The position numbers and the translations under genes were made by a program. A stretch of 64,000 nt of DNA, taken from positions 66,023,898 to 66,087,897 of the forward strand of contig OX104123.1 of the NCBI GenBank assembly GCA_944474755.1, given 5' to 3'. Position 1 is the stretch's first letter. Each line of letters begins with the position of its first letter. The notes below the pieces were generated by a model. It saw only the letters and a program-made list of their open reading frames with translations. It was not told the origin of the DNA and made no database searches. Source of the DNA: Limnoperna fortunei. Taxonomy: Eukaryota > Mollusca > Bivalvia > Mytilida > Modiolidae. Below are positions 21,976 through 61,817 of this stretch, piece after piece.

Positions 21976-22644
21976 TGTGACGAAGTTTGTAATTGAGCTA
22001 TTTTTAGATTGTGGTAGATCGGAATTTATTTACTTGCTGATAAGGGATGTTGTATTCGGTACACACACGTGCAAACATCCTAGTGGATCTTCTAACTAGG
22101 CTTTGGTTATCGCATCTGGAAACGTTCTGGTGATGAGGATATTTTATCCACTCAAAATGCAGCATGGAGGTTTATAAGCCAAGAGTTTCAGTTATTCGTT
22201 AATGGTGTTGAAGTTGAACCTGTGAGACGGATCGAATTAAAGAGTTATTAAGACAGAAGGGTTTGTATACTACTATTTCTTATTACTACCGCACATCCTG
22301 AAAATGGCTTAGGGTCGTATTATAGAAGTAATTAGTATAGTCACGCATACATTGAATTCCCTTATATAAGAGGATGCGGCATTAGTTGACTGAATCTGCA
22401 ACAGCGAGTGCGTACCGAGTGTAGTGGTTGCAATCTGTCTCTAAAGTCGTAGTAGGTTTATATACCAGCGCCTGCGTATCAAGGGAAGCGTATGATTGAT
22501 TGATTGATTGATGTTTAACGTCCAGCAAGCAATATTTCAGCTATATTCAGGACGTGTGGGAAGCGTATGAGCCCAGCGCATGCGACGATTATATATGCAG
22601 TTAATATTACCCTATTCAAGAACGAATTCATTAAACACGTTACA
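21976..22644 (+). repeat. Gypsy-2 3' LTR, carrying a LINE-tail insertion
   Basis: Same TGTGACG...TTACA ends as the 5' LTR. It retains about 38 bp missing from the 5' copy and contains the short insertion at 22497-22556. The TATA box is mutated (GTTTATAAG). Confidence 0.88.
22497..22556 (-). mobile_element. Minimal LINE tail insertion with target duplication
   Basis: About 60 bp consisting only of the (TCAA)n repeat and the terminal hairpin (arms 22519-22523 and 22550-22554), on the minus strand. It interrupts the LTR and is flanked by GGGAAGCGTATGA on both sides (13 bp, single in the 5' LTR near 16267). The empty site in the 5' LTR shows the insertion is precise. Confidence 0.85.
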
Positions 22645-41428: not shown

Positions 41429-42783
41429 TGTAACGAATTTCTCATGGAGTGTCTCCGTTATCAGACATGAATAAGTTCTTATGATTGAAACCTCGTAGTT
41501 TTCTTAAATATTATGCCTTTTTATAATTTTTATTATTGTCAAATAGACCACGTAAAGATAAAACGTCACTTATTGAAAACCTACCAGGTATTATGTTGAA
41601 AACTTCAAATGACGTCAGTAACAAATGTACACTATTTAAGTCCAACGAATATTGTTTGATACAGAAATATGAGTTTATTTGTTATAACTTGACTTGTCTA
41701 TCGAATGTTTATTATAATGTATGAATATTTTGTCATTTTGCTTACCTTTTAGCTATGCGGATAGCCCTGGTCAAGCGCCATCTTGTGTCTATTTGCTTAC
41801 TGCCGTAAATCAGTCTAGATGTCGTATAGCGTTTAATACGTCAAATTTAAGTCTTTTAAGTATCCGGTGACGTCATAATCAAAATTAAGTCACCCGATAG
41901 TATAAATAGAGCGAGATTTGAGTCTTAGTTCAGTCGTGATTTGACTCCCGAATCGTTCACTTGAACGTCAAACGTCCTTCGAGACTCAGCTAAGACCTTT
42001 TCATAGCGACATCATAAATTCAAGGTCAATATTTATTCGAGTTGATAAATTCAGTGTTTAAACGCAAAGTGACTCAAGTTACAATATTTCAATTATGTCG
42101 AGACTCAAGCAGTTCTAAGGCGCAACGACCATATAAGGAAATAACAAACTATAAAAAAAATATTTGCGTCTCATTTGTTCCGATTTTATGAGTCTTCTTT
42201 CAACACTAAGTCACTTCATTACTTATTAATTTGTGTTAAGAGTTTACAAACAAGACTCAACGAGCTCGTGCACTATACGAACAAGACACTAAACAACTTA
42301 CATTACGAACAAGACACAACAGAAAATCACATATAATTATTATTGGGTATTTTAACTTAAATATTCGAATGCGTACTTGACCAGAGCTATCCGCGCAATA
42401 ATGTGTTGAATGAGTCTGAATAATAATAATATAAAATGAGTCTTACTATGTATTAAACTCAAAGTTGTTAAGTCTCAATAAACAATAACATCCTTACAAG
42501 ATATTGTAATCCTTGTTAAAAATCTTCTTGACAACGCACATACTTAACTATAATACAGTAACACAATAGATTCTCGAGTCTCAAATTTATATTGAGCCAA
42601 GACTACGAAGTCTCAAGTCACATGTCAAATATTTGTCTTGTGTCGCAAAATAAGGAACTTAAGTAGTTCCTCAAAGAACACATATCCAAAACTAGTGGTC
42701 TCGGAGTCAAGGAGTGTCGGTTGCCATTTCGTGTCCTAAGGTAAAACTTACTTAAAAATAATTAGCGGGGTAGGTTCGCTACA
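41429..42783 (+). repeat. Gypsy-1 5' LTR
   Basis: TG...CA ends. It contains a core promoter, two perfect CRE palindromes, a polyadenylation signal AATAAA (42477-42482) and eleven GAGTC/GACTC pentamers between 41914 and 42715. Nearly identical to 62200-63553. Confidence 0.95.
41868..41935 (+). promoter_or_regulatory. Gypsy-1 LTR core promoter (CRE, TATA, initiator)
   Basis: CRE TGACGTCA at 41868-41875, TATAAATA at 41901-41908 and an initiator-like TCAGTC at 41930-41935, 29 bp after the TATA start. A second CRE is at 41610-41617. The same set is at 62639, 62672 and 62381 in the 3' LTR. The spacing fits a cAMP/stress-responsive Pol II promoter; this is a motif-based inference. Confidence 0.65.
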
Positions 42784-42784
42784 T

Positions 42785-42802
42785 TGGTGGCCAGTGTGGG
42801 GA
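42785..42802 (+). promoter_or_regulatory. Gypsy-1 primer-binding site
   Basis: TGGTGGCCAGTGTGGGGA begins one base after the LTR; the initial TGG would pair with a tRNA CCA end. Gypsy-2 has TGGTGGCAGCTGTGG at the same place. The pattern is close to Leu-type primer sites of other Gypsy elements, but the tRNA is not established. Confidence 0.6.
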
Positions 42803-42841
42803 TCCCTGTCATTTCAAAGGGATCTCCACGAACTTAATTTT

Positions 42842-42849
42842 AAGTAAGT
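42842..42849 (+). promoter_or_regulatory. Splice-donor-like site in the Gypsy-1 leader
   Basis: AA|GTAAGT with the GT at 42844-42845, nine bases before the gag ATG. It matches the U1 consensus from position -2 to +6. Paired with the acceptor-like TTGTAG at 48256-48261 it would remove gag-pol and make the ORF3 ATG the first AUG of the spliced RNA. Splicing is inferred. Confidence 0.55.
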
Positions 42850-42858
42850 CAAAACAAA

Positions 42859-44367
42859 ATGTCGAGTTCTCGTGTGTCAAGGCAACCGAGTTTTGTGATG
42901 TTAGAACAGACTGAAAGTGAAGGTACATCATCATTGGAATCGGGAGTCGATCCACGACTCCCCGCATCGAGGTCGATGGACTTAAACTCTACGAAATCGA
43001 GTCATTTAGATCTAACACCATCAGGTGAAGTCCAGATGCGGGTAAAAACATCTGTTTCCCGACGAGAAACGAGTCGTGACATTGATAATTTGCAAAACAC
43101 AAATACGGAAAACTTAAATTTACAAAAGCGCGAAAAACTGAAACGGGAACTAAGTGAACTCAGGGAGACTGAAAGACGAATTATTGGTTTATTGGAGAGT
43201 CATAATGACGATGAAATTCGTTTTGAGAATTTCAGGCTATCCCATGAAGGGGGAGACAATCATCTAAATGATGGAGTGTTGCCAGATCTCCGCGGTCAGA
43301 GTGATCAGTGCTATGGGCCCAGCACTAACTCTTCATGGAAGGCACCACCAACTTTACGTGATGAGGTGTGCGGACCTGTCCGAATGGACAGAAACGGGTG
43401 TGTAGACACCATGACTCCTCCCGATCGAAGGTACACAAATGTGGGGTGTGGTAAACGTGAAATGGAAAACTCCCGAGTAAAACTTACAAAGACTGACGAC
43501 TCGTACTCGTGCAACCAGTTAGTCTCGAATGGGTCAAGTTCATTGTCTCAATTTAAGCCTAAGAAACCACCAACTTTTGACGGTTCAAACAGTTGGCAAG
43601 ATTTTCTCGTTCAATTCGAAATGGTGTCCACTGTCAATAGGTGGGATGAATACACCAAAGCTTACGAAATTGCCACAAGTTTAAGGGGTGTGGCACAGGG
43701 TGTTGTTACGGAAATTGAGCCGGCAAAAAGGTTTGATTATGATTATTTAGTTTTGGCTCTGACTTCGCGGTTCGAGCCCGTAAATCAGCAAAACATGTAT
43801 AAAGCACAATTGAATTCCTTATACAGAAAACCGGGACAGGCATTACCTGAAATGGCACAAGAGATACGACGTATTACTAGGCTTGCATATCCGTCAGCTC
43901 CTATAGATATACGAAATCAACTTGCAAAGGACTGCTTTATAAGAGCGATTAACGACTCTAAACTTCAACTCTCGATCTTCCAGCGAGAGCCGAAGTCCAT
44001 AGACGACTGCGTTCGTTTCGGTGTAGAATATGAGTCTTTCATTGTCGATCAAAAAAGACTTCAAAGTGGGAAACAAGGACTGCGCATGATAAATGCAAAT
44101 GATCAAAATGAAGATGAAATTCATGTTCGGCTAGCAAAAATTAGTGATCAAATAGAAAAACTTAATAATCAGTCACATAAAATTTCAAAAGTTATTACGT
44201 GTTTTTACTGTGGCAATAAGGGTCACATTAAGAAAGAATGTCGAAAATTCGAGTGGGATAAGAAACACAATTGTGTCAAGTACAAACAAGCGGACAAGCA
44301 AAATACAAACCCCCCACAACAGACTCAAATGGTTGAGTCGAATTCAACCCGACATCAGGGAAACTAA
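42859..44367 (+). CDS. gag: Gypsy-1 Gag polyprotein (502 aa)
   Basis: The first ATG after the leader is at 42859 (MSSSRVSRQP). Residues about 90-120 form a charged, Leu-rich probable coiled coil (REKLKRELSELRETERRI). Residues about 235-400 are the capsid-like region (PPTFDGSNSWQDFLVQF, LRGVAQG, LPEMAQEIRRITRLAYPSAP). The CCHC knuckle CFYCGNKGHIKKEC is near residues 448-461, before a Gln/Asn-rich end. It should form the particle and package RNA. The stop TAA (44365) directly follows a -1 frameshift heptamer, so a fraction of ribosomes would continue into protease. Confidence 0.92.
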   Translation: MSSSRVSRQPSFVMLEQTESEGTSSLESGVDPRLPASRSMDLNSTKSSHLDLTPSGEVQMRVKTSVSRRETSRDIDNLQNTNTENLNLQKREKLKRELSELRETERRIIGLLESHNDDEIRFENFRLSHEGGDNHLNDGVLPDLRGQSDQCYGPSTNSSWKAPPTLRDEVCGPVRMDRNGCVDTMTPPDRRYTNVGCGKREMENSRVKLTKTDDSYSCNQLVSNGSSSLSQFKPKKPPTFDGSNSWQDFLVQFEMVSTVNRWDEYTKAYEIATSLRGVAQGVVTEIEPAKRFDYDYLVLALTSRFEPVNQQNMYKAQLNSLYRKPGQALPEMAQEIRRITRLAYPSAPIDIRNQLAKDCFIRAINDSKLQLSIFQREPKSIDDCVRFGVEYESFIVDQKRLQSGKQGLRMINANDQNEDEIHVRLAKISDQIEKLNNQSHKISKVITCFYCGNKGHIKKECRKFEWDKKHNCVKYKQADKQNTNPPQQTQMVESNSTRHQGN

Positions 44368-44398: not shown

Positions 44399-45245
44399 AA
44401 CTTGTCATGAAAATTTTAGGTCCCCGGAAATAAATAAACAAGACAGTTTATATTTGAAATGTTTTATTAATTCTCTTGAAATTAATTGTTTAATCGATAC
44501 AGGTTCAACGATATGCATTCTACACCCTAGGAAATACAATGTTATACCTTCAAATTATAGACCAGATATAAAAGCTTATAACACAAGACTCTGTCTTGCT
44601 GATGGAGGACAGATAAAAACTTTCGGTTACATAGATTTACCGGTAACCATACATGATATTACATTGACTCACAAATTCATAATAGCTGAGATTGACGTAC
44701 CAGCTATCATAGGTTATGATTTCTTAAGTAAATTCAAATGTACTCTCGACCTTGGGGTGGGAATACTAACTCTATATCAAAATAAAATACAGTGCATCAA
44801 AGAAAGTCAAATTGACTCAGTGTTTAAAGTATCGCTAATGGAAAAGGTTACCATTCCACCAAATGCTGAAATTATCGCAACAGGACAGGTCAATGGCGAC
44901 TCAAGTAGTGTCGTTAATGCCATTATCGAGTCGTCTCATTCAAAACACGTCAATAATGTCCTAGTAGCAAAAACGCTTGTTGATCCTAGTTGCGGGTTAG
45001 TTCCGTTGAGACTTGCAAATATCAATGATTTTGAAATAACTTTACCTTGTTCTACATGTGTAGCAACTTGCGAGTCTGTGCACTTTGATGTTTCTTTCAA
45101 TCGTAACAACGCAAAACTAATGAAGGTCGATACTACCGAAACAGACGTACTACCCGAATATTTACTCGACCTCAAAAACAGAAGCAGCGAAAATTTAACT
45201 GAAAACCAAATTGAACAATTAGAGAGACTTTTGAAAAAAACATAG
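44364..45245 (+). CDS. pro: Gypsy-1 protease region, in the -1 frame
   Basis: Entered by frameshift at 44364; the first Met codon is not needed. The active-site triad lies in CLIDTGSTICIL (DTGS at 44496-44507), with the second motif IIGYDFLSKF about 80 residues later. An extension of ~170 residues follows before the stop at 45243-45245. This aspartic protease matures Gag-Pol. The stop lies just after a run of seven A (45234-45240), beyond which the RT frame begins one base out of phase. Confidence 0.88.
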   Translation, partial: LIKAGDEDRSPATCHENFRSPEINKQDSLYLKCFINSLEINCLIDTGSTICILHPRKYNVIPSNYRPDIKAYNTRLCLADGGQIKTFGYIDLPVTIHDITLTHKFIIAEIDVPAIIGYDFLSKFKCTLDLGVGILTLYQNKIQCIKESQIDSVFKVSLMEKVTIPPNAEIIATGQVNGDSSSVVNAIIESSHSKHVNNVLVAKTLVDPSCGLVPLRLANINDFEITLPCSTCVATCESVHFDVSFNRNNAKLMKVDTTETDVLPEYLLDLKNRSSENLTENQIEQLERLLKKT

Positions 45246-48048
45246 ACACGTGTTTTCTAAAACTAAAGACGACTTAGGGGTTGCGAGTAGTATTAAACAC
45301 AAAATAAACACTGGCAACGCACAACCTTTCAAACAACCGCCGAGACGGATCCCGCACACAAAAAGAGACGCAGTCGATCAGGAGATACAGCGACTTATCG
45401 GTTGTAAAATAATAGAACCATCGACGAGCCCATGGGCATCAAATATAGTGCCAGTCACAAAGAAAGACGGTTCTATTCGTATCTGTGTTGACATGCGTTC
45501 TCTCAATAATTTAACTATTAAGGACTCATATCCTCTACCACGAATAGACGATTCTCTTGATGCTTTACGGGGTTCAAAATGGTTTAGTGTCTTAGATTTA
45601 TCGAGCGGTTATTTTCAGGTCCAAATGGACGAAAAAGATAAAGAGAAAACTGCATTCTCAAGCACTAAAGGCTTATTTCAGTTTCGGGTAATGGCAATGG
45701 GTCTATGCAATGGCGTCGCAACTTTTCAACGGTTAATGGAGTATGTTTTAGAAGGACTCAATTGGAGAACCTGTTTAATTTATATAGATGACATTATTGT
45801 TTTCTCTGATTCATATGAGTCTCACTTGGAAAGACTCGCTGAGGTTTTAAGTCGGATAGCCAAAGAAGGCTTAAAGATATCGCCCAAAAAGTGCTGTTTC
45901 TTCCAGAAGCGTGTTTTGTTTCTTGGACACACTGTGTCTGCAGACGGTGTAGCTACTGACCCTGATAAAATTGACTCTGTTAAACCATGGCCGAGTCCCA
46001 AATCACTAAAAGATGTCCGAAGTTTCTTGGGTACATGCTCTTATTACCGTAAATTTATCAGAAACTTCGCTGTTATAGCAAAACCCATGCATAAGTTGAC
46101 AGAAAAGAATTGTCCTTTCAAATGGACAGATGAATGTGAAACGGCTTTTCAACAACTAAAAAACTCACTGTTGACTGCACCTATACTTGGCTTTCCGGAC
46201 ATGGCCAAACCTTTCATTCTTGATACCGATGCTAGTGGTTACGGTATAGGCGCAGTTCTGTCACAAATATCAGATGGCAAAGAAATTGTCATAGCGTACT
46301 TTAGTAAAGCTCTCAGCAAAGCTCAAAGACAATATTGTGTCACACGACGTGAGCTATTAGCAATTGTTTTAAGTCTCAAGCATTTTCACCATTATTTGTA
46401 TGGAACACAGTTCTTAGTTAGAACAGACCATGGCGCCTTGACATGGCTTTTACGTTTCAAAAACCCCGAAGGTCAAATGGCGCGTTGGCTCGAAATGCTC
46501 AATACATACAATTTTACGATACTGCACAGGCCAGGTAAACAACACGGAAACGCCGATGGCCTGTCGCGGCGTCCGTGTAATGAATGTAATCACTGCAGCC
46601 GTCGTGACGAAATGGAATTGGAATCAATGGGTGGAAATGCATGTAACCAAGAGTTTTTACGAAGAACTAGAAAGTGTGAAATGAAGTCTTTAGAAGATGA
46701 TGATCACTATACATTTCAATGGTTGTCTCACAAAACTGATGTGGAAATGTCAGATGCTCAAAAATCTGATATGGATATCTCTATTCTGTATAAGCTGAAA
46801 GCTTCAAGTCGCGAACGACCCACTTGGGTAGAAATTGCCATTGAAAATGTAAGATTAAAAAAATATTGGTCACAGTGGGATCGGATTGAAATTATTAATG
46901 ATGTCCTTTATCGCAAATGGATACATCCAGTTACGGAGCAAACAAATTTACAATTTCTGATTCCAAATGTCTGGAAGCAAGAAATATTATCACTGGTCCA
47001 TGATGACCCTTCTGCAGGTCATATGGGGATCCACAAAACAACTGCAAGGGTTCAAAATAGGTTTTATTGGGTTGGATATAAAAATGATGTAATTAACTAT
47101 ATAAAAAACTGTAAAACTTGCAGTTCGAGAAAGCAACCACAACGCAAAGCAAAAATGAAGCAATACAATGTGGGTGCTCCCCTTGAGAGGATTGCTTTAG
47201 ACATTATAGGCCCTTTACCATTGACGAATAAGGGAAATAGATATGCACTTATCGTCGCAGACTATTTTACAAAATGGGTTGAAGGTTACTCTATTCCAGA
47301 CATTGAAGCTGCAACAATAGTTGAAAGTTTTACTACTAACTTTGTTAGTAGATTTGGTGTCCCTCGCGAGATACATACAGACCAAGGAAGGCAATTCGAA
47401 TCTGCGTTGTTTAAAGAATTGTGTAAACAATTCAGAATAAATAAAACTCGAACTACTGCATTTAGACCACAAAGTGATGGCCTTGTTGAACGATTTAACC
47501 GTTCCCTCGAAGATATTTTAAGTAAATATATAAATAAAAATCAAAGAGACTGGGATGAACAGTTACCGTGGGCTTTAATGGCCTACAGGTCATCTGAACA
47601 TGATAGTACTAAGCTCTCCCCTTGTTTAATGATGCTCGGACGAGAAATTGAGCTCCCTGTAGACTTAATTTATGGCCCCCACCCACAACGCGAACATTTC
47701 AAAGATAAAGTGGATGCAAAACATGAATATGTTCTTAACTTGTAAGAAAAACTTTGGAAAGTACAAGAAAGAGCACGAAAAAATATTATCGCAGCCAGTG
47801 ATAAACAAAAACGACAATATGACATTAAAGCAAAGCAAAATTCGTACAAAGTTGGTGATTTTGTGTGGCTATATTCTTTAGTGAGAACTAAAAATGCGAG
47901 TCCAAAACTGCAGAGGCATTGGGATGGGCCATACTGTATATTAGAAGTAATATCAGATGTTATCTATAAAATCCAAAAGTCTCAGAATTCAAAAATTCAA
48001 GTCGTTCATCATGATAGGCTCAAACCATATTTTGAGCAGGCTGAATAA
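45241..48048 (+). pseudogene. pol: Gypsy-1 Pol: RT, RNase H, integrase (one nonsense codon)
   Basis: RT: LNNLTIKDSYPLPRID, DLSSGYFQVQM, FRVMAMGLCNGVATFQRLM and YIDD at 45781-45792. RNase H: FILDTDASGYGIGAVLSQ, RTDHGALTWL, HRPGKQHGNADGLS. Integrase: zinc-binding HMGIHKTTARV...CKTC near 47020-47125, then catalytic D (LDIIGP), D (HTDQGRQF) and E (GLVERFNR), then a GPY/F-type module (RHWDGPYCILEV) near 47920. An in-frame TAA at 47743-47745 cuts the protein before the last ~100 codons; the same frame resumes to 48048. The extra A before 45241 also separates it from protease. Confidence 0.92.
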
Positions 48049-48261
48049 AAAAAAAAGAAAAGAAGTGTCATTAGTCTGTTACTTGATCTGTAAAAAAAAG
48101 TATATTTTTAATAAATAAAATTAGAAAACAAACATGTTATACAAAACGTGTATTTAAAGAAAAAGTTTGGACTAACGAGAAAACACAACATGTGAGATAG
48201 CTCTCTGGTCAATGCGCAATGTTAAAAATGTATTCTCAAAAATCTTGTTTCATCCTTGTAG

Positions 48262-49485
48262 ATGGGTTTTGAATGTTATCAATGCGGAAACTGGTACAAC
48301 ACTAGACAGGCACTAATGAGACACGTGAGGGTGGTACATCCTAGCAAGGTTGTTAAATGTAACCTGTGTTCATATGTAGTTTCTTCATCACTGAAATACC
48401 GAATGACTGACCACCAACTGCGTAAGCATGGCATAGCCTATACTGATGACAAGGAAAACAGAAATATGACACACATGACCATACCAGACATCCCCTGCAG
48501 CTACTACCAGGATCTACCCACATATAGTACATCTGCCAGTAAAACTTTGGAACTGAAGCCGAGCGACAGAGATACATTCCAACCACTTACTCCTCTACAA
48601 GTTCAACGACCAGCAAACCAGTTCAGCCCTTGTTCCACCCGTTCATCACTTGTTTCACCTGTAAGCATCACACTCGGATATGAAGACCATGAAATTGAAC
48701 AGGAAATCATTGATACCTCGTTGTTTACCAGACCTGTCAGAATCATCTCTCCAATACCATCAACACCACCTTCAAAGAAACCTAAAACAGACCGTGTCCC
48801 AGCATTTGTAACCGAACCAACTAATTCACCTGTAATCATCATTGAGGATGATAATCTGTTGCCTGATGAAATGAGATCGGAAATCATACCAAACTTGTCT
48901 TCCACTAGCTCATCTTCATCATCATGCACATCCTCTGAATCTTCCTGCTCTTCACCCTCTGTCATGAAACCGCATATGTATACTACAAAAAGAGACTCAA
49001 GCCATCTTGCAGTACCTAACCCTGAGGCAACTTCAAAAGGAAAATTGTGGCACAGATTTTTAGCACCTCCCAGTTCATTTGATGCATCTAAAACAGGAAA
49101 ACTTATTCAGAACATCAGAAAGGAAGCCGTAAAAAGCTCAACTTATCAGGGCTCTGTTATTCCTTATGGGTACAATTGTGTCAGGAAGGAAGAGAAAGTA
49201 GTGTTACCAGATGGAACTGTCTATGTTCTGACAGCTACTTGGGTGGCTGATCCAACAATTAGTTCAAGGAGGACAATTGGTGTACAAGTAGATGTACCGT
49301 ATTATATTGCACAACCGATTGCGAATGCTTCTATCCAAGTAGAGCCTGTCAGGGAGGAGGAACAAACACAGACAGAAACAACAACAGAAGAGAAGGGGAC
49401 CAACACCCGTTTTCTTAGGAGGAATGTTTCAATTCAGAACTCTTTACAAGTAACAACAGCTCACGCTTCTACACAAACCAACAAA
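48262..49485 (+). pseudogene. Gypsy-1 ORF3: paired C2H2 zinc-finger protein, interrupted by LINE D
   Basis: The ATG at 48262 follows an acceptor-like pyrimidine-rich TTGTAG. Two fingers lie at the N-terminus: C5-C8-H21-H26 (CX2CX12HX4H) and C33-C36-H51-H56 (CX2CX14HX4H). Then come a low-complexity Ser/Thr/Pro region, a basic SKKPKTD patch near residue 170, a Ser-rich tract near 218-236, a conserved-looking LWHRFL...GYNCVRKEEKVVLPDGT...TATWV block, and a tail with VQVD, IQVE, TQTE, LQVT and TQTN motifs (341-407). The frame is intact up to the LINE. After the LINE 27 more codons reach a TGA at 61815. Function unknown; it lies where env would be but has no signal peptide or membrane segment. Confidence 0.75.
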
Positions 49486-50696
49486 CCCCGTGTGGGACCC
49501 GGGGCACAGGAGAATAGGCCCATGGCTTCCTCAGCCTGCAGTAAGAGTCTGCTAACAGAGGCAACACTTGCCGTGTGTTGCGACCCGTGTCGATTGCAGG
49601 ACGGGATTTCAGTAGGCCGGGTAAACGGTCCCGATAACCTACTGAACCCTTACTTTTTCTAGACGGGAAATCGAGTTAGCCCTGACTTCGATGAATCGGC
49701 ATGTCACGTCTTGCCCTTTGTGAATCCTTCTCATTTTAGCTTTTCTATTACATTTATTTCTTTTCAAACTATTCCATGAAATGTATTAACCAGTTGATAG
49801 ACAGCTTCCTTTAAGGATTTACAAAGAAGGCGGTGGCTGAAGGGCAAAGCTTCCTCAGCTTTATAGAGGCAACATGTTTGCCGTGTGTTGCAACCCGTGA
49901 TGGTGGAGGAAGGGATCCTGGTGGTTGAGAGATCACTCTCTGCTGCATCCATTAGTGCGGGTCAGCGGGTTTCGATTTTCAATACACCACTTTGGCCCTG
50001 ACTTCAACTAGACGGGAGGCCGGATGGACCCGGTTCGGTCAATCGGCTGGTCACGTCGAGCCCTTAACAAGCTTGACTTCATCTTTCGTATTACTTGATT
50101 CTGTCTTGTAAATCTTACAAACAAAATTGTTCAGTAACAGGCTGTTAAGAAGGCGGTGGCTCATGGGTCAATCAAGTAGACCGAGTTTCGAACGGTTGTA
50201 TCGCCAGGTAACCCCGGCCACGAGGCATGCGTTCATTAAGAAATTCGTCTGTTTGAGTATACCACCCTTGGAACACCTGATGCTTTCTGCTGGTGATCCG
50301 CAGACACCAAGCATCGCCCCTGTTGGCACTCCGTGGCGGGTGGGTGACAAGGGTGGTGAACCATATTTTTTCATCATGGCTTCAGAAATTCAAATAAAAA
50401 ATGGTACAAAAAAAAGAAAAAATGACTTTCCTCTTGAAGAATTGGTTGTTGAAGAAAATTGGCCTAAATTTATTGTTTTATCTAGCAAAGACCCAACTAA
50501 ACCTTTGGCAAAAGTATCTCCTTTCATTATTGAAAAAGCTATTAAAGGGTGTGCAGGAGACGTTAAAAACGTCACAAAAATGAAATCCGGTTCCCTCCTT
50601 ATTGAATGTAATAGAAAACACCAGTCTACAAATTTATTAAAACTTTCAAAAATTGTTGACTTAGAAATATCTAGCTCTCCCCACAGAACTCTAAAA

Positions 50697-51582
50697 CCCC
50701 GCGTGGGACCCGGGGCACAGGAGAATAGGCCCACGGCTTCCTCAGCCTGCAGTAAGAGTCTGCTAACAGAGGCAACACTTGCCGTGTGTTGCGACCCGTG
50801 TCGATTACAGGACGGGATTTCAGTAGGCCGGGTAAACGGTCCCGATAACCTACTGAACCCTTACTTTTTCTAGACGGGAAATCGAGTTAGCCCTGACTTC
50901 GATGAATCGGCATGTCACGTCTTGCCCTTTGTGAATCCTTCTCATTTTAGCTTTTCTATTACATTTATTTCTTTTCAAACTATTCCATGAAATGTATTAA
51001 CCAGTTGATAGACAGCTTCCTTTAAGGATTCACAAAGAAGGCGGTGGCTGAAGGGCAAAGCTTCCTCAGCTTTATAGAGGCGACATGTTTGCCGTGTGTT
51101 GCAACCCGTGATGGTGGAGGAAGGGATCCTGGTGGTTGAGAGATCACTCTCTGCTGCATCCATTAGTGCGGGTCAGCGGGTTTGATTTTCAATACACCAC
51201 TTTGGCCCTGACTTCATCTAGACGGGAGACCGGATGGACCCGGTTCGGTCAATCGGCTGGTCATGCCGAGCCCTTAACAAGCTTGTCTTATTTTTCTTGT
51301 CACTTCATCATATCTTGTGAATTTCACTTCCAAAGTTGTTCAGTTACAAGCTGTTAAGAAGGCGGTGGCTCATGGGTCAATCGAGTAGATAGAGTTTCGA
51401 ACGGTTGTTTCGCCAGTTAATTCTGGCACGAAGCTTGCGTTCGTGAAGAAATTCATCTATTTGAGTATACCACCCTTGGAACACCTGATGCTTTCTGGTG
51501 GTGATCCGCAGAGATAAGCATCGCCCCTGTTGGCACTCCGTGGCGGGTGGGTGACAAGGGTGGTGAACCGTATTCTTTCAAC
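50697..51582 (+). promoter_or_regulatory. LINE E 5' UTR (presumed internal promoter)
   Basis: Non-coding leader conserved in all five copies. It is made of related blocks: GCCGTGTGTTGC with CCCTGACTTC and CTAGACGGGA occurs twice (50779-50905 and 51091-51235), and AAGAAGGCGGTGGCT occurs at 51036 and 51356. Such leaders normally carry the internal promoter of non-LTR elements; no core motif was identified. A 62-codon antisense ORF recurs in several copies but looks like a by-product of sequence conservation. Confidence 0.55.
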
Positions 51583-52923
51583 ATGGCTTCTACAACTAAT
51601 AGTATAATGGGTTCAAAAAAAAGAAAAAATGAATTTCCTCTTGAAGAAATGGTTGATGATGAGCAGTGGTACAGATTTATTGTTCTAACAAGTACTGACC
51701 AAACTAAACCTTTATCTAAAATTTCTCCATTTGTAATTGAAAAAACTATTAAGGGTTGTGCAGGAGATGTAAAAAATGTAACAAAACTGAAATCAGGCTC
51801 ATTGTTAATTGAATGCTCAAAGAAACAACAATCCTTCAATTTGTTAAAATTAAACAAAATTCTCGATTTAAACATCTCTTCTTCTCCCCATAGAACTTTA
51901 AATTCCAGCCAAGGTATTATTCGTTACAGAGACCAAGATCTCTCTGAGCTTACAGATGACGAAATTTGTGAAGAACTTAAACCTCAGGGTATTACAAAAG
52001 TAAAAAGATTCGTAGCCAACAGAGAAGGTGTTCAGGTTAAACTGAATACCTTCCTTCTGCACTTTAATACTCCATCTGTCCCTTCATCAATAAAAATCGG
52101 TCTCTACAATGTTAAAGTAAGCGCATACATCTCCAACCCTGTGCGCTGCTTTAAGTGTCAAAAGTTCGGCCATGGGAAGGGACAATGCAGAGGTCACTTG
52201 ACCTGTTTCAAGTGTGCAGAAGAAGGACATGAGGGATTTACCTGCACCAAAACTCCAAAGTGTGCCAATTGTGGTGAAGCCCACATGTCCTCATCCAAGG
52301 ATTGTCATCATTTTAAAAAGGAAAAAGATATACAAAAGTTAAAAACTGAAAGAAACATCTCTTACCCTGAGGCTCGTCGTCTGTATAATACAACGAATAA
52401 TCCTTCGTCTCCTGCATCAACGTCATATGCCAGTGTGGCCAAACGCGTTCTAACTTCAGTTGAAACGCAGACAATCATCACCTGGCCTATTGACAAACAA
52501 GAACCTTCCAAATTATCAGTTACAACAACAGACAAAATCATTGAATCTTCAAGAAAATCTTCATCTTCTCAAACTGCTGCGTCTTCAGCACCCTCTCAAA
52601 CTGCTACGTCTTCAGCACCCTCTCAATCCACAACCAATTCTTCAAGAAGCCCCAAAAAAAATTTAAAAAATACCAACTCCAATGTAAATTCTAACTCAAA
52701 TAAAAACTCAAATCAAAAAGGAGATCGTACTCCAAAACTGCTGCGGGATCCCATTAAGGTCCACAACAGGTTTGGAAGTCTAGATCATCTAGACACTACT
52801 ATCTGGGGCGATCCCATGGATACACTACCCCCAGATACTGGATCTAAAAGTAGATCCCCCAGCAGAAACCGGCGGAATAGCCCCAAAAAAACTGTCAACT
52901 ATTCCCCTATTCGAAGACCATAA
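51583..52923 (+). CDS. LINE E ORF1 protein (446 aa), intact
   Basis: The start at 51583 (MASTTNSIMG) is chosen by alignment with other copies. KKRKNEFP lies near residue 12. Residues about 100-185 form the conserved segment preceding the knuckles; three CCHC knuckles follow near 188-242, a Ser/Gln-rich stretch with two QTA(A/T)SSAPS units near 335-360, and a basic end with SRSPSRNRRNS. Predicted RNA chaperone/RNP protein of the element. The stop TAA (52921-52923) shares its last A with the ORF2 ATG. Confidence 0.93.
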   Translation: MASTTNSIMGSKKRKNEFPLEEMVDDEQWYRFIVLTSTDQTKPLSKISPFVIEKTIKGCAGDVKNVTKLKSGSLLIECSKKQQSFNLLKLNKILDLNISSSPHRTLNSSQGIIRYRDQDLSELTDDEICEELKPQGITKVKRFVANREGVQVKLNTFLLHFNTPSVPSSIKIGLYNVKVSAYISNPVRCFKCQKFGHGKGQCRGHLTCFKCAEEGHEGFTCTKTPKCANCGEAHMSSSKDCHHFKKEKDIQKLKTERNISYPEARRLYNTTNNPSSPASTSYASVAKRVLTSVETQTIITWPIDKQEPSKLSVTTTDKIIESSRKSSSSQTAASSAPSQTATSSAPSQSTTNSSRSPKKNLKNTNSNVNSNSNKNSNQKGDRTPKLLRDPIKVHNRFGSLDHLDTTIWGDPMDTLPPDTGSKSRSPSRNRRNSPKKTVNYSPIRRP

Positions 52924-52925
52924 TG
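52921..52925 (+). promoter_or_regulatory. TAATG stop-start overlap of LINE ORF1 and ORF2
   Basis: The ORF1 stop TAA overlaps the ORF2 ATG by one base. The same TAATG is present in copies A (8043-8047, minus), B (27359-27363), C (35562-35566) and D (57841-57845), even in decayed ones. UAAUG coupling is known to drive termination-reinitiation in the silkworm element SART1; the same mechanism here is inferred. Confidence 0.8.
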
Positions 52926-55900
52926 GGTACAATAATACAATGGAATTGTCGAGGTCTTAAGATTAATTTTCTTGAAATCACATTATTAGTTCAAGCCTTT
53001 CTTCCTGTTGCATTTTGCCTCCAAGAGTCCCACCTAAAACGAAGTGATAACATATCTTTAAAAAATTACTCTATATACAGCACATATGTAGACGAGAATG
53101 ATAGAGCTGCTGGCGGCTCTACCATTCTTGTAAAAGACCAAGTTCTACATAGCCCTGTAGATCTCAACACTGATCTTCAGGCGGTTGCTGTTAGAATATC
53201 ATTAGACAAAACAATTACTTTATGTTCTGTGTATATCCCTCCAAATTCTTCATTAAATTTAAATCAGTTGAAACATCTTACTGATCAGCTTCCGGCCCCT
53301 TATATATTACTTGGGGACTTCAACGGACACAACCCTTTATGGGGCAGTAACACAATAAGCGATAAAGGTAAAATTATTGAAAGCTTAATGAATCAGGAAG
53401 ATCTGTGCATTTTTAATGATGGAACTAATACATATTTACATCCTGGGAATGGATCATACTCGGCTATTGATCTAACAATAGCAGATCCTTCTCTGTTGTC
53501 CGATTTCTCATGGAAAGTCCATGACGATCTCTGTGGCAGTGATCACTTTCCAATTATCTTGCAATCTTTACACTCGTCAAACAAAGAACGAGACGCTCGG
53601 TATAAATTTGGCAAGGCCAATTGGTCTCTATTTGAACAACTCTGTATAGAGCGACTTAACTCGGATACTTTTGAAACTATTTCTGATCCAATTTTAAAAT
53701 TCAATGAAACACTTATTTCAATTGCTGACGAAACTATTCCTAAGACCTCGACAAATCCAAAACATCCTAGTAAACCATGGTTCGATGACAGCTGTGAGGA
53801 CGCTATTAAAGACCGGAAAAAGGCCGAACGACGCTTTAATAAACATCCAACTCAAAATAATCTTAACCATTTCCGAATTTTTCGAGCGAAAGCTCGCAGG
53901 GTAACGAAACAAAGACGACGCACCTCTTGGCGTAACTTTGTTTCTAAACTAAATAACCATACCCCTATGAATAAAATTTGGAACATGATTCGTAAAATTA
54001 AAGGTAAAAACAGTAAAGCAAATGTCCATCATTTAAAGGATGGACAAGACTTGTTAACATCAGAGTCAGATATATCTAACAAATTGGCCGAAACATTTGC
54101 AAAACACTCGTCCGCTGGAAATTATCATCCGGATTTTCAGCGTATCAAAACTCAAAAAGAAAAATCAAAACTTAATTTCCAGTCAAAAAATTTGGAAGAT
54201 TACAATACACCTTTTTCTTTGGAAGAGCTAAAAACTTCTTTGAACAAATCTCACGACACAGCATGTGGTCCAGATGACATCCATTACCAACTTCTCAAAC
54301 ATCTGCCACAATCTTCTCTCCAATGCCTTCTGAGTCTTCTTAACAACATTTGGGAAACGGGTGACTTACCATCTATATGGAAAATGGCCACTGTTGTGCC
54401 TATTCCAAAGCCAGGAAAAGATCACTCGGAAGCGTCCAACTATCGGCCTATAGCACTCACAAGCTGTCTTTGTAAAACCATGGAAAGGATGATCAATGAT
54501 CGCCTTGTCTGGTTTTTAGAATCCAACAATCTACTTTCTAATATTCAGTGCGGTTTTAGACAAGGGCGAAGTACCCTAGATCATCTTGTACGTTTCGAAA
54601 CGTATATTCGAAACGCCTTTGCAAAAAATGAGCATGTTGTGTCTATCTTTTTCGATTTAGAAAAAGCGTATGACACAACATGGAAATATGGTATTTTAAA
54701 AGATCTTTTTGATATGGGGTTGAAAGGTAGACTTCCTACCTTTATTTCAAACTTTTTATCTGACAGAGAATTTAAAGTTAGGGTCAATTCTACTTTATCG
54801 GACCCTTTTGAACAGGAAATGGGTGTTCCACAGGGAAGCATCCTTTCTGTCACTTTATTTAGTATCAAAATTAATAGCCTTGCTCAAGTTTTAAAAGATA
54901 ATATTGATGGTTCTCTTTATGTTGACGACTTCCTCATATGTTACCGAGGAAAAAACATGAATAATATTGAACGTCAACTGCAGTTATGTTTAAATAGAAT
55001 AGAGAAATGGGCAATGGAGAATGGTTTTAAATTCTCCACTGCAAAAACCGTTGGGATGCATTTTTGTAATAAACGAAAGATGCATCCTGACCCCGAATTA
55101 AAATTATATAATAATCCTATCAAAATTGTAAAAGAAACTACTTTTCTTGGTCTCATATTTGATTCAAGGCTAACCTTTCTTCCCCATATCAAAATGTTAA
55201 AAAATAAATGCCTAAAGGCATTAGATATTTTAAAAGTCGTTGCCAGCACCGACTGGGGTGCTGAATGTGATGTTTTACTCAATCTATATAGATCGCTGGT
55301 TCGATCGAAGTTGGATTACGGTTGTTTTATTTATGGTTCTGCTCGCAAGTCATATGTCAAAATCCTTGATACTATACACCATCAAGGATTGCGACTATGC
55401 CTTGGAGCTTTCAGAACCACACCTGTTGAGAGTTTATATGTAGAAGCAGGCGAGCCTTCTTTGTATCAAAGAAGAATAAAGCTCGCTTTGCAATATGCAA
55501 CCAAATTAAAGGCATATCCTGGCAACCCCGCCCACGACTGTGTTTTCAAACCTCTTTATCAAAACATTTTCGAAAAACATCCAAACAAAATTCAACCTTT
55601 TGGCCTCCGAATTAAATCTCATTTGGAAAATTCTGGTATAAATTTAGATGAAATCGCTGCAATCGAAATTCCGCATAATCCCCCGTGGTTAAACCCCAAA
55701 CCGATATTTATTTATGATCTAAGAAAACATAAAAAGTCCGACACAAACCATTTAATAATACAACAACATTATGCAGAAATTAAATCTTGTTACTCTGACT
55801 ATAGTACTATTTACACAGACGGGTCAAAAGACGGTGATAAAGTCGCCTCGGCCGCTGTCTTCGGAGAGCGTGTTGAAACTCGCCGGCTTCCGTCTGCCTC

Positions 55901-56603
55901 ATCTGTATTTACAGCAGAGGCGCAAGCTATTCTTCTTGCGATGAAAATAGTTGCTTCGTCAGAAAAATGCAAATTTATTGTCTGCTCCGATTCCCTGTCT
56001 TGTCTACTGGCTATTGAAAATTTCAAAATTAAAAATCCTTACATTTTAAAAATTATTCAAATCTACAAATCACTTGTTGCTTTGGGAAAAGAAATTATCT
56101 TCTTCTGGATTCCCAGTCATGTCGGCATCCGTGGAAACACAGTCGTGGATCAGGAGGCTAAAAATGCACTAAAGGATTCGATCATTAACTGTAGTATTCC
56201 TTTTACCGATTTTAAACCGTTAATTTTTAAATATATTTCTAATTTGTGGCAGAGTGGTTGGGATCTCCAAGTTCATAATAAACTTCATGAGATCCAGCCA
56301 CTACTGCACACAAATAATTTTAAATGTTTTAGAGGTCGAAGAGACCAAGTTGTTTTAACAAGATGTCGTCTTGGTCATACCAGGACGACACATAGTTATA
56401 TTTTAAACAATGAGCCACGACCCGAATGTGTGCCATGCAACAGTCCATACACCATTAAGCATGTCTTGATGGACTGTGTGGACGTGGCCCACATTCGGGA
56501 ACGTTTCTATAGTGCAGATACATATTTTAATTTATTTAAAACTGTCGCAGGCGACACAATTTTAAAGTTCTTAAATGAAATTAATTTATTTAATAAAATT
56601 TAA
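52923..56603 (+). CDS. LINE E ORF2 protein (1226 aa), intact
   Basis: APE-type endonuclease with N8, E35, GDFNGH (131-136) and SDH (206-208); RT about residues 480-745 with FFDLEKAYD, VPQGSIL near 634 and YVDD near 665; RNase H about 962-1085 with YTDGS, TAEAQ, CSDSLS and VVDQEAK; C-terminal CRLGHTRTTH...CVPCNSPYTIKHVLMDC near 1147-1184. The enzyme would nick the target, prime reverse transcription on the (TCAA)n tail and remove RNA. Translation is probably coupled to ORF1 by the TAATG overlap. The trailing RNase H points to the I/Nimb-like group. Confidence 0.96.
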   Translation: MGTIIQWNCRGLKINFLEITLLVQAFLPVAFCLQESHLKRSDNISLKNYSIYSTYVDENDRAAGGSTILVKDQVLHSPVDLNTDLQAVAVRISLDKTITLCSVYIPPNSSLNLNQLKHLTDQLPAPYILLGDFNGHNPLWGSNTISDKGKIIESLMNQEDLCIFNDGTNTYLHPGNGSYSAIDLTIADPSLLSDFSWKVHDDLCGSDHFPIILQSLHSSNKERDARYKFGKANWSLFEQLCIERLNSDTFETISDPILKFNETLISIADETIPKTSTNPKHPSKPWFDDSCEDAIKDRKKAERRFNKHPTQNNLNHFRIFRAKARRVTKQRRRTSWRNFVSKLNNHTPMNKIWNMIRKIKGKNSKANVHHLKDGQDLLTSESDISNKLAETFAKHSSAGNYHPDFQRIKTQKEKSKLNFQSKNLEDYNTPFSLEELKTSLNKSHDTACGPDDIHYQLLKHLPQSSLQCLLSLLNNIWETGDLPSIWKMATVVPIPKPGKDHSEASNYRPIALTSCLCKTMERMINDRLVWFLESNNLLSNIQCGFRQGRSTLDHLVRFETYIRNAFAKNEHVVSIFFDLEKAYDTTWKYGILKDLFDMGLKGRLPTFISNFLSDREFKVRVNSTLSDPFEQEMGVPQGSILSVTLFSIKINSLAQVLKDNIDGSLYVDDFLICYRGKNMNNIERQLQLCLNRIEKWAMENGFKFSTAKTVGMHFCNKRKMHPDPELKLYNNPIKIVKETTFLGLIFDSRLTFLPHIKMLKNKCLKALDILKVVASTDWGAECDVLLNLYRSLVRSKLDYGCFIYGSARKSYVKILDTIHHQGLRLCLGAFRTTPVESLYVEAGEPSLYQRRIKLALQYATKLKAYPGNPAHDCVFKPLYQNIFEKHPNKIQPFGLRIKSHLENSGINLDEIAAIEIPHNPPWLNPKPIFIYDLRKHKKSDTNHLIIQQHYAEIKSCYSDYSTIYTDGSKDGDKVASAAVFGERVETRRLPSASSVFTAEAQAILLAMKIVASSEKCKFIVCSDSLSCLLAIENFKIKNPYILKIIQIYKSLVALGKEIIFFWIPSHVGIRGNTVVDQEAKNALKDSIINCSIPFTDFKPLIFKYISNLWQSGWDLQVHNKLHEIQPLLHTNNFKCFRGRRDQVVLTRCRLGHTRTTHSYILNNEPRPECVPCNSPYTIKHVLMDCVDVAHIRERFYSADTYFNLFKTVAGDTILKFLNEINLFNKI

Positions 56604-56745
56604 TTTCTTTATTAATTGTGATACTTAATATTTTTATTGTTTTAACTACCATTTTTATCTGTGTATATTCTCATATTATTGTATGAGATCACGTTTTAGT
56701 ATAAGGAGGCATGATGTTCTACTAATTTAAAAATTATGGTTTTCA

Positions 56746-56781
56746 CGTCCTGAATATAGCTGAAATATTGCTTGCTGGACG
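56746..56781 (+). other. LINE 3'-terminal hairpin
   Basis: Arms CGTCC (56746-56750) and GGACG (56777-56781) enclose GAATATAGCTGAAATATTGC, in which AATA/TATT can also pair; (TCAA)n follows. Present at the same place in copies A, C and D. Likely the RT recognition structure. Confidence 0.7.
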
Positions 56782-57842
56782 TTAAACATCAATCAATCAA
56801 TCAATCAATCAATCAGAACTCTAAACTCGAGTCAAGGGATTATTCGTTACCGAGGCGAAGATCTCTCGGAATTATCGGACGATGAAATCTGTTCAGAACT
56901 AGAGCCTCAGGGTGTTACAAAAGTTAAAAGATTTATTGCTAACAGACAGGGTGTTCAGGTAAAACTGAACACCTTTCTGTTAAATTTCAACACACCTACT
57001 GTCCCCGAATCCATCAAGATTGGTCTGTACAAAGCTAAAGTCAGCGCATACATCTCCAACCCTGTGCGCTGCTTTAAGTGTCAAAAGTTCGGCCACGGAA
57101 AAGGACAGTGCAGAGGTCACCAGATTTGTTTCAAGTGTGCAGAGGAAGGACATGAGGGCTTCACCTGCACTAAAACGCCAAAGTGTGCTAATTGTGGTGA
57201 AGCCCACATGTCCTCATCTAAGGACTGTCAGCATTTTAAAAAGGAAAAAGAAATTCAAAAAATTAAAACTGAAAAAACATCTCTTACCCTGAGGCTCGTC
57301 GTCTGTATAATACAACGAATAATCCCTCGTCTCCTGCATCAACGTCATACGCCAGTGTTGCCAAACGCGTTTTCACGTCAGTTGAAACGCAGACAATCAT
57401 CACCTGGCCTATTGACAAACAGGAACCTTCAAAATTAGCAGTTACAACAACAGACAAAATAATTACATCTTCACGAAAATCTTCATCTTCACAAACTCCT
57501 GCGTCTTCAGCAACCTCTCAAACTGCTACGTCTTCAGTACCCTCTCAATCCTCAACCAATTCTTCAAGTAGCCAAAAAAAAAAATTCAAAAAATGTCAAC
57601 TCCAATTCTTCTAACTCTAATAAAAACTCAAATCAGAAAAGAGATCGTACTCCAAAACTGCTGAGGGATCCGATAAAGGTCCACAACAGGTTTGGAAGTC
57701 TAGATCATCTAGACACTACTATCTGGGGCGATCCCATGGATACACTACCCCCAGATACTGGATCTAAAAGTAGATCCCCCAGCAGAAACCGGCGGAATAG
57801 CCCCAAAAAAACTGTCAACTATTCCCCTATTCGCAGACCATA

Positions 57843-60800
57843 ATGGGTACAATAATACAATGGAATTGTCGAGGTCTTAAGATTAATTTTCTTGAAATTA
57901 CATTATTAGTTCAAGCCTTTCTTCCTGTTGCATTTTGCCTCCAAGAATCCCATCTAAAACGAAGGGATAACATATCTTTAAAAAACTACTCTATATACAG
58001 CACATATGTAAACGAGAATGATAGAGCTGCTGGCGGCTCTACTATTCTCGTAAAAGATCAAGTTTTACATAGCCCTGTAGATCTCAACACTGATCTTCAG
58101 GCGGTTGCTGTTAGAATATCTTTAGACAAAACAATTACTTTAGGCTCTGTGTATATCCCTCCGAATTCTTCATTAAATTTAAATCAGTTGAAACATCTTA
58201 CTGATCAGCTTCCGGCCCCTTATATATTACTTGGGGACTTCAACGGACACAACCCTTTATGGGGAAGTAACACAATAAACGATAAAGGTAAAATTATTGA
58301 AGGCTTAATGAATCAGGAAGATCTGTGTATTTTTAATGATGGAACCAATACATATTTACATCCTGGGAACGGATCATATTCGGCTATTGATCTTACAATA
58401 GCAGATCCCTCTCTGTTGCCCGATTTCTCATGGAAAGTCCATGACGATCTCTGTGGCAGTGATCACTTTCCCATTATATTGGAATCTTTGCACTCTTCCA
58501 TCACAGAACGAGCCGCTCGGTATAAATTTAACAAAGCCAATTGGCCTCTATTTGAACAACTCTGTATAGAGCGACTTAACTCGGATACTTTTAAAGCTAT
58601 TTCTGATCCAATTTTAAAATTCAATGAAACACTTATTTCAATTGCCGATGAAACAATTCCTAAGACCTCGACAAATCCAAAACATCCTAGTAAACCATGG
58701 TTCGATGACAGCTGCGAGGACGCTATTAAAGACCGAAAAAAAGCCGAACGACGCTTTAATAAACACCCAACTCAAAATAACCTTAACCACTTCCGAATTT
58801 TTCGAGCGAAAGCTCGGAGGGTAACGAAACAAAGACGACGCACTTCTTGGCGTAACTTTGTTTCTAAACTAAATAACCATACCCCTATGAATAAAATTTG
58901 GAACATGATTCGTAAAATTAAAGGTAAGAACGGTAAAACTAATGTCCATCATTTAAAGGATGGACAAGACTTGTTAACATCAGAGACAGATATATCTAAC
59001 AAATTGGCCGAAACATTTGCAAAACACTCGTCCGCTGAAAATTATCATCGCGATTTTCAGCGCATCAAAACTCAAAAAGAAAAATCAAAACTTAATTTCC
59101 AGTCAAAAAATTTAGAAGATTACAATACACCTTTTTCTTTGGAAGAACTCAAAATTTCTCTAAACAAATCACACGATACAGCATGTGGCCCAGATGAAAT
59201 ACACTATCAACTTCTTAAACATCTCCCACAGTCTTCTTTGCAATGTCTTTTAAATCTTCTTAACAGTATTTGGGAAACGGGTGACTTACCTTCTATTTGG
59301 AAAATGGCTACCGTTGTACCTATTCCAAAACCAGGTAAGGATCACTCAGAAGCGTCGAACTATCGGCCTATAGCCCTTACAAGTTGCGTCTGTAAGACCA
59401 TGGAACGGATGATTAATGATCGCCTTGTCTGGTTTCTTGAATCCAATAACCTTCTATCAAATATACAGTGTGGATTCCGACAAGGACGAAGTACCATGGA
59501 CCATTTGGTACGTTTTGAAACTTTTATTCGAAACGCCTTTGCCAAAAATGAACATGTTGTGTCTATCTTTTTCGATTTAGAAAAAGCATATGACACAACA
59601 TGGAAATATGGTATTTTAAAAGATCTTTTTGATATGGGGTTGAAAGGTCGACTTCCTACCTTTATTTCAAACTTTTTATCTAACAGAGAATTTAAAGTCC
59701 GGGTAAATTCCACATTATCGGACCCATTTGAACAAGAAATGGGTGTCCCTCAAGGCAGCATTTTATCAGTAACTTTATTTAGTATTAAAATTAATAGTCT
59801 GGCTCAAGTCTTGAAAGACAATATTGACGGTTCTCTCTATGTTGACGATTTCCTCATTTGCTATCGGGGAAAAAACATGAACAATATTGAGCGTCAACTA
59901 CAGTTATGTTTACATAGAATAGAGAAATGGGCAATGGAAAATGGCTTTAAATTTTCCACTTCCAAAACTGTCGGTATGCATTTTTGTAACAAGAGAAAAA
60001 TGCATCCTGATCCCGAACTTTCATTGTATAACAACCCTATTAAAATTGTGAAAGAAACTACTTTTCTTGGTTTGATATTTGACTCTAAACTCACCTTTCT
60101 TCCCCATATAAAAATGTTGAAATCTAAGTGCCTTAAAGCACTTGATATTTTAAAAGTCGTATCCAGCACTGACTGGGGTGCGGACCGCGACACATTATTG
60201 AATCTATATAGATCGCTGGTTCGATCGAAATTAGATTATGGTTGTTTTATTTATGGTTCAGCTCGCAAGTCATATGTCAAAATCCTTGATACCGTTCACC
60301 ATCAAGGATTGCGACTATGTCTTGGAGCTTTTAGAACCACACCTGTTAATAGTTTATATGTAGAAGCAAACGAGCCTTCTTTGTATCAAAGAAGAATTAA
60401 GCTCGGTTTGCAGTATGCAACAAAACTTAAGGCTTATCCTACCAACCCTGCTCATGACTGTGTTTTCAAACCGTTTTGTAAACAAATTTTTGATAATCAT
60501 CCAAACAAAATTAAACCTTTTGGCCTAAGAATTGCATCTCATTTGGAAAATTCTGGTATCTGTATAGATGAAATTGCCCCAACTGAAATTCCTCACAATC
60601 CTCCATGGTTAAATCCTAAACCAGTATTTATTTATGATTTGCGAAAATATAAAAAATCTGACACAAACCGCTTGATTATTCAGCAACATTTTGCAGAGAT
60701 TAAATCTTGCTTTGTTGATCACAGCTCAATTTATACGGATGGATCGAAGGACGGTGATAAAGTCGCTTCAGCCGCTGTCTTCGGAGAGCGAGTTGAAACT

Positions 60801-61523: not shown

Positions 61524-61735
61524 TCATCTAATACCATAAATATGCTATTGTTTCATATTTTATCATTTTAGTCATGTTTTTTATTGTATATACTCTCATA
61601 CTATAGTGTGAGATTTCAGTTTTATTATAATTCAACAGGGTTGCTTCTAACTTCTGAACGATATCAATTTTGTTCACGTCCTGAATATAGCTGAAATATT
61701 GCTTGCTGGACGTTAAACATCAATCAATCAATCAA

Positions 61736-61817
61736 ACAAACCAACAAAACAGAAACAGGACAACAGGACACAGAAACAGGACATACAGATGAATTAGTGT
61801 TTTCCTATATAAGTTGA
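61736..61817 (+). pseudogene. Gypsy-1 ORF3, C-terminal end after the LINE
   Basis: Begins with the right copy of the target duplication and continues the ORF3 frame for 27 codons (with TETGQQDTETG, a short repeat) to TGA at 61815-61817. It shows that the ORF was open at the time of the LINE D insertion. Confidence 0.8.

Follow-up and report, generated by a model that had tools for sequence, protein, structure and literature searches.

A C2H2 zinc-finger third gene behind integrase in Ty3/Gypsy elements of mytilid bivalves, probably expressed by splicing

The locus and its interrupted third gene

As summarized in Table 1, the window (the whole 64,000-nucleotide stretch of Limnoperna fortunei DNA that was analysed) holds two Gypsy elements. 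Gypsy-1 is a Ty3/Gypsy LTR retrotransposon, as attested by its TG..CA LTRs, its 4-bp target duplication and its protease-RT-RNase H-integrase order, the Pfam matches being RVP, RVT_1, RT_RNaseH, Integrase_H2C2 and rve, in that order. Protease and pol lie in different frames in this copy, and pol carries an in-frame stop (47743-47745). The primer-binding-site (PBS) block was the same or nearly the same in nine of ten leader regions of related copies, and was absent from L053. Behind pol, in the position of env, lies a third open reading frame, ORF3.

ORF3 is split by a nested non-LTR insertion, bordered by a 13-bp target duplication (ACAAACCAACAAA) whose first copy (49473-49485) falls inside ORF3 and whose second copy occupies 61736-61748. 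The outer non-LTR element runs to about 50694 and resumes at about 56815; another copy belonging to its family is nested in between (about 50694-56814). The 466-aa frame starting at 48262 reads into the inserted element, and only 48262-49485 is native to ORF3. Position 49485, which the earlier note had taken as the end of the feature, is the exact point at which ORF3 is interrupted, but the gene continues behind the insert to a stop at 61817 (...FSYIS*). P0009, a relative from outside the window, crosses the insertion point without the insert, and its residues 167-192 correspond to 61737-61814 with 100% identity.

By eye, the nested element is of a two-ORF, APE/RT type, and the same family also occurs at about 25122-29787, 33298-39398 and, on the minus strand, 10187-4237 of the window. 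A short dispersed repeat (GATTGATTGATGTTTAACGTCCAGCAAGCAATATTTCAGC-like) is present in many copies (22498-22556, 15385-15443, 40656-40724 and others), some of them within the Gypsy-2 3' LTR and others where the non-LTR elements have their 3' ends.

Table 1. Features of Gypsy-1 and Gypsy-2 (window coordinates)
Feature	Position	Strand	Basis
Gypsy-2, older element; LTR starts at 15795 and 21976; flanking repeat ACTG	15795..22644	+	
Decayed Gypsy-2 ORF3, 6 stops; TTTTTCAG-A-ATG acceptor-like sequence directly upstream	20304..20984	+	
Gypsy-1 5' LTR (TG...CA)	41429..42783	+	4-bp flank ATAT; self-BLAST, 99.7% vs 62200-63553
Primer-binding-site block TTGGTGGCCAGTGTGGGGATCC	42784..42805	+	leader comparison
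GTAAGT, putative splice donor in gag leader	42844..42849	+	sequence reading and donor score
gag, 502 aa, CCHC knuckle	42859..44367	+	ORF list, Pfam
Protease region	44454..45245	+	ORF list, Pfam
RT-RNase H-integrase (pol)	45250..48048	+	ORF list, Pfam
Pyrimidine-rich predicted splice acceptor ending CTTGTTTCATCCTTGTAG, adjoining the ORF3 ATG	48240..48261	+	
ORF3 main part, 408 codons: two C2H2 fingers, NLS-like SPIPSTPPSKKPKT, conserved SSHL...RFLAPPS...PDGTVY..TATWVADP domain	48262..49485	+	
Nested insertion within ORF3	49486..61735 (about)	+	self-comparison; element type by eye
ORF3 3' end, ...TDELVFSYIS*	61749..61817	+	P0009 comparison
Polypurine-tract-like GAGAAGGGGGCAA	62187..62199	+	
Gypsy-1 3' LTR	62200..63553	+	self-BLAST partner of 5' LTR; ATAT flank on both sides of element

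The ORF3 protein, its relatives and selection

The translation of ORF3 begins with C-x2-C-x12-H-x4-H followed by C-x2-C-x14-H-x4-H, in agreement with the two C2H2 fingers that had been described at its start. The Pfam C2H2 models stayed below their cut-offs on full-length ORF3 proteins, L040 alone passing one zinc-finger model (zf-BED, by 1 bit). Both fingers are retained in most subfamily representatives, a finger-2 ligand being lost in L031 and L004. Its conserved Cys2-His2 pairs place ORF3 among the C2H2 zinc-finger proteins.

We aligned 15 ORF3 proteins, nine from genomic loci and six from protein searches, some of them incomplete. Conserved toward the N terminus were C..CG..Y.....LMRHVR..HP, a second C..C...H...H and SPV.ITLG..DH; toward the C terminus, HL..P, RF..PPS and Y.GSV.PYG...V.K.E.V..PDGT.Y.LSA.W..DP. 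A proline-flanked, basic, NLS-like motif, SP..PTPKR(K)R, matched in 9 of the 15. The tail is acidic, ends in SYIS or SYFS in many of the aligned proteins, and contains stretches that may be SUMO-interaction-like. The C-terminal domain, despite its conservation, bears no Pfam name, and no relatives of it were found outside the family. A fold model had a mean pLDDT of 46, with the fingers alone confident, and the best match to PDB profiles had an E value of 0.62.

A search of the L. fortunei genome with 48262-49482 (the stretch used as the ORF3 query) returned at least 135 matches, many with open frames of 348-440 aa; since 102 of 311 candidates were scored, these counts are lower bounds. Subfamilies at about 35-50% protein identity keep long open frames behind integrase, and 30 loci examined, representing 23 distinct places, had pol sequence upstream in 29 cases (22 places). 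Three protein searches gave 19 distinct matches, and all those with organism names (all but 8) came from Mytilus edulis, M. coruscus and M. galloprovincialis. Related elements keep a C2H2 ORF behind integrase, as the earlier note had anticipated. Neither the ORF3 alignment nor pol had relatives in scans of viral contigs, and a 34-residue Sphingobium match (L001) from the genome-contig scan was taken as chance. In one element copy (L014/L008/L015, L. fortunei C1:47975868-47981152), the pol end and the ORF3 start are partly tandem-duplicated.

Codon models gave an omega of 0.105 for ORF3 over six subfamilies (303 codons) and 0.100 over nine (306 codons), compared with 0.064 for integrase in the same six; for the Gypsy-1 subfamily, the ORF3 was that of L003 and the integrase that of L004, a sister copy. 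These values are approximate, because synonymous sites are saturated between subfamilies, but an omega of 1 was still far worse in likelihood: log-likelihoods with free omega and with omega 1 were -5310.0 and -5531.7 (ORF3, six subfamilies), -8397.6 and -8785.8 (ORF3, nine) and -3390.8 and -3773.2 (integrase). ORF3, at about 0.10, is under purifying selection. Within subfamilies, dN/dS ranged from 0 to 0.78 in 12 pairs with few differences and exceeded 0.5 in six of them; raised values are expected here, because young copies include post-insertion changes. The ORF3 and integrase trees had the same topology, with low support at several nodes.

Gypsy-2 provides a second, more distant case. Its RNase H frame and its ORF3 are separated by only 405 bases, a gap too short for an integrase. 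We could confirm both the acceptor-like TTTTTCAG one base before the ATG at 20304 and, despite six stops, a frame with paired Cys/His fingers, the second of which, as a 36-aa piece, scored 30.7 bits against a Pfam cut-off of 27. When the intact tail of this ORF3 was used as a query, ten genome matches were found (20 of 20 candidates scored). Two of them, L080 and L081, each carry an intact 274-aa ORF3 with the paired layout, one finger being C2HC and the other C2H2, and a basic SPKK-containing segment; it starts with TTTTTCAG-A-ATG immediately after the integrase, which shares 41% identity with the Gypsy-1 integrase. In L085 (L. fortunei C9:56259500-56261000), an open frame of 285 codons encodes a Gypsy-2-like ORF3 that is more diverged and has its Cys/His clusters in a pair. 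The two-finger modules of Gypsy-1 and Gypsy-2 could be aligned in register over 52 columns (pairwise E 0.00095, probability 22%, for the finger module alone), which hints at a common origin of the modules.

Splice sites around ORF3

The earlier note had proposed that ORF3 is expressed from a spliced subgenomic mRNA, with its acceptor in the pyrimidine-rich stretch whose TTGTAG directly precedes the ATG at 48262. The stretch is exactly as described. An AG lies immediately or one base before the ORF3 ATG in 48 of the 53 copies with a visible ORF3 start (L012 and L049, which have none, were excluded); of the remaining five, L017, L019 and L064 have a decayed start, and L037 and L041 have an excised spacer. 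The sequence before the AG differs by subfamily (TTGTTTCATCCTTGTAG, TTTAATTCCAG, CTTTTCTTCCAG, TTAACCACTTCCAG, AAATACTTACAG, TGTTTTTCAGA, GTATCTTTTCAG, AATTATAATTTCAG, TGTATATTGGCAG). By comparison, 95 of the 2248 ATGs in the window (4.2%) are preceded by YAG or YAGN together with at least 9 pyrimidines in 18 positions. A single acceptor or GTAAGT would be no more than suggestive, but the recurrence of the acceptor across many subfamilies is far beyond chance.

Two genomic copies appear to be fossils of splicing. L037, which resembles its sibling L038 closely (98.4% over 921 upstream bases, four ORF3 differences), is without exactly 278 nt of L038, from behind the integrase end to the acceptor (GTGAAT...TTACAG). 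L041, likewise close to its sibling L040 (98.9% over 1394 upstream bases, one ORF3 difference), is without exactly 175 nt of L040 (GTGAGA...TTTCAG), from GTGAGA through the acceptor TTTTTCAG. Because both excisions are exactly GT-AG, splicing at the ORF3 acceptor has very probably taken place in two subfamilies or more. The donor of each fossil lies behind pol, not in the leader, and also exists in unspliced copies: among 20 copies, GTGAATAT is present in all three that are of the L038 type, and GTGAGA in all nine that are of the L040 type. L049 (a spacer deletion) and L012 were also considered as spliced copies and rejected, the ends of their deletions not being GT-AG.

In L037 (C2, minus strand), the loss of the spacer lets the pol frame read over the ORF3 ATG to an immediate stop (ATGTATGA), so that stop and start overlap. 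Three predicted Mytilus gene models, known from protein sequence, join three different upstream coding stretches to ORF3 (integrase in P0016 and P0018, an OTU-domain protein in P0019), all just before MMF-T/I-CRHCG. The OTU-domain fusion to the ORF3 start in P0019, from Mytilus edulis, might reflect exonisation or an annotation artefact.

The evidence on the leader side is more mixed. The Gypsy-1 GTAAGT lies exactly nine bases before the gag ATG, as had been noticed, and ranks in the top 0.8% of GT sites in the window by donor-matrix score; GTAAGT occurs nine times on the plus and 14 times on the minus strand of the window. We scored seven leaders (Gypsy-1, L032, L033, L034, L050, L052 and L054; L035, L036 and L051 have the same site as L034, and L053 has no PBS), and in each of the seven a GT lies 51-61 nt from where the PBS begins. 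The putative donor was strong (GTAAGT, GTAAGG or GTAAGA) in Gypsy-1, L033 and L054, moderate (GTGAAA) in L050 and weak in L032, L034 and L052, other GTs outscoring the candidate in L032. A genome-wide pattern search for copies of a leader-to-ORF3 junction, conducted for the L040 subfamily, found none. In the Gypsy-2 lineage, one relative was read and no convincing leader donor was found; GTAGGA was dismissed as a candidate, an intact relative having no GT there. The acceptor half of the splicing proposal is supported by the two fossils. Its donor half, the junction from 42843, is weaker (a strong donor in three of seven leaders, no junction copy in the L040 subfamily), and a long leader-to-ORF3 intron is a less certain feature.

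Could these observations be accounted for without a spliced ORF3 message? That the spacer-less L037 and L041 are chance deletions is very unlikely: nearby deletions with other ends do occur (L049, L012), but both fossils, from different subfamilies, combine a GT start with precisely the predicted acceptor AG, as only about 1 in 10,000 start/end pairs in these stretches would. It is unlikely, though less so, that ORF3 is a real gene read from unspliced or alternatively initiated RNA, by reinitiation after pol or from an internal promoter, with the acceptor serving mainly a short pol-end intron. The fossils, which both drop the pol-ORF3 spacer alone, would fit such expression, as would the weak leader donors of several subfamilies and the pol frame of L037, whose end just past the ORF3 ATG is compatible with reinitiation. 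Against it, subfamilies share the placement of the acceptor at the ATG, those with a strong leader donor among them, and retrocopies of an RNA devoid of gag and pol would presumably be rarer anyway.

Possible roles and known counterparts

Complex retroviruses are characterised by accessory regulators that act in the nucleus. A genome that contains splice sites and yet has to be exported unspliced faces a difficulty that Rev overcomes in HIV and CERV in the nematode element Cer1. The earlier suggestion of a third gene in the env position, with features of a nuclear or nucleic-acid-binding factor, is sustained by purifying selection, by the fixed place behind integrase and by acceptor use in two fossils. 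In our judgement, a large mytilid Ty3/Gypsy lineage probably has in ORF3 a genuine third gene, coding for a spliced, soluble and probably nuclear accessory protein functionally like CERV. This protein, with its N-terminal paired fingers, basic NLS-like motif, conserved C-terminal domain and acidic tail, would be translated from a spliced RNA whose acceptor lies exactly at the initiation codon. In the main message, a leader exon would most likely be joined to ORF3, its donor lying some 50-60 nt past the start of the PBS, and a second donor just behind pol would also be used in some subfamilies. Since the genomic RNA would then contain functional splice sites, ORF3 would most likely serve to act in the nucleus on the nucleic acid of the element itself: it could promote export of the unspliced genome, in the way that CERV serves Cer1, or act on LTR transcription. 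More broadly, we tentatively propose, with perhaps a little more against the idea than for it, a bivalve Gypsy clade of at least two deep lineages (integrases about 41% identical) in which a spliced C2H2 protein in the env slot controls the nuclear fate of unspliced genomic RNA or LTR activity, in the manner of complex retroviruses but with an origin separate from both retroviral Rev/Tat and nematode CERV.

It is possible, if rather doubtful, that ORF3 is instead a nuclear DNA-binding factor, concerned with LTR transcription or with integration targeting or protection rather than with RNA export. DNA is the commonest target of C2H2 fingers, and to our eyes the TPKRxR-type basic motif and the acidic tail look like those of nuclear regulators; two fingers only, however, would be expected to confer little DNA specificity unless the protein multimerised. 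C2H2 fingers are also widespread in animals, and the M. edulis model P0019 couples an OTU domain to the ORF3 start, as might be expected if ORF3 were a captured host gene with no function in the element. Such an origin is highly improbable, being contradicted by the purifying selection on ORF3 (omega about 0.1 across subfamilies, with a topology matching that of integrase); moreover, none of the 19 protein matches was a characterised host gene with the C-terminal domain. Finally, its position alone would suit a divergent envelope or membrane fusogen, but this is barely credible: runs of nonpolar or small residues reach at most 12 in the 15 proteins, so that neither a long hydrophobic stretch nor a membrane segment is evident, and Pfam scans of ORF3 proteins gave no env match.

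In errantiviruses, the env-bearing Ty3/Gypsy elements, the third gene codes for a membrane glycoprotein, Env, and its message arises when a leader donor is spliced to an acceptor behind pol. ORF3 has the same place and an acceptor behind pol as well but, unlike Env, no evident membrane segment. The third ORF behind pol is variable in bdelloid rotifer LTR retrotransposons, where it encodes an env-like glycoprotein, a GDSL esterase/lipase or a DEDDy exonuclease, and the portion of that report at hand describes no C2H2 protein (PMC5408684). The accessory genes sORF1 and sORF2 of env-less Gypsy elements of the Drosophila MDG1 group are likewise under selection but, as far as the portion consulted describes them, differ from ORF3 in being short, upstream of gag, HTH-like or transmembrane, and without splicing evidence (PMC11952523). 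Plant LTR retrotransposons, in other hosts, share an extra ORF behind pol, for which splicing is reported in some (Bagy2), and some antisense products are reported to be nuclear; the term 'zinc finger' has no occurrence in its text (PMC7264820). In the main text of a mollusc LTR survey, 'ORF', 'env' and 'zinc finger' appear zero times as whole words (PMC6238403). Among the open-access papers retrieved for this layout, none reported in its title or abstract opening a Gypsy element with a C2H2 ORF behind integrase; an earlier catalogue entry, as in Repbase or a subscription journal, is possible.

CERV is the closest known analogue of ORF3 in position, expression and presumed site of action, although it is described as a different protein. 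In Cer1 of C. elegans, as set out in the sections of the report available to us, this nuclear regulator is translated from a spliced mRNA into which the env-position ORF is incorporated; it is a five-exon product whose C-terminal half is that ORF, has an NLS candidate and a possible zinc-binding loop, perhaps a C4 zinc finger, and is needed for export of the unspliced genomic RNA (PMC10309623). Both elements have a non-Env-like ORF between pol and the 3' LTR and an NLS candidate; the spliced mRNA and the nuclear product described for CERV are probable for ORF3 (PMC10309623). By the published description, ORF3 is set apart by its own ATG at the acceptor and its two C2H2 fingers (PMC10309623). 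The earlier view that no described family has this layout should be qualified: Cer1 has a spliced nuclear regulator involving the env-position ORF, although the C2H2 module is absent from the available description of CERV (PMC10309623).

A spliced zinc-finger third gene would suggest that these elements run a nuclear control step of their own. If so, nuclear accessory regulation would arise repeatedly in LTR elements, here with acceptor use recorded in genomic copies, and the ORF3 elements would constitute a large natural family for testing how unspliced retroelement RNA leaves the nucleus. Outside the complex retroviruses, CERV is the one worked example that we have met; ORF3 would be a second, numerous and selectively maintained, in a bivalve.
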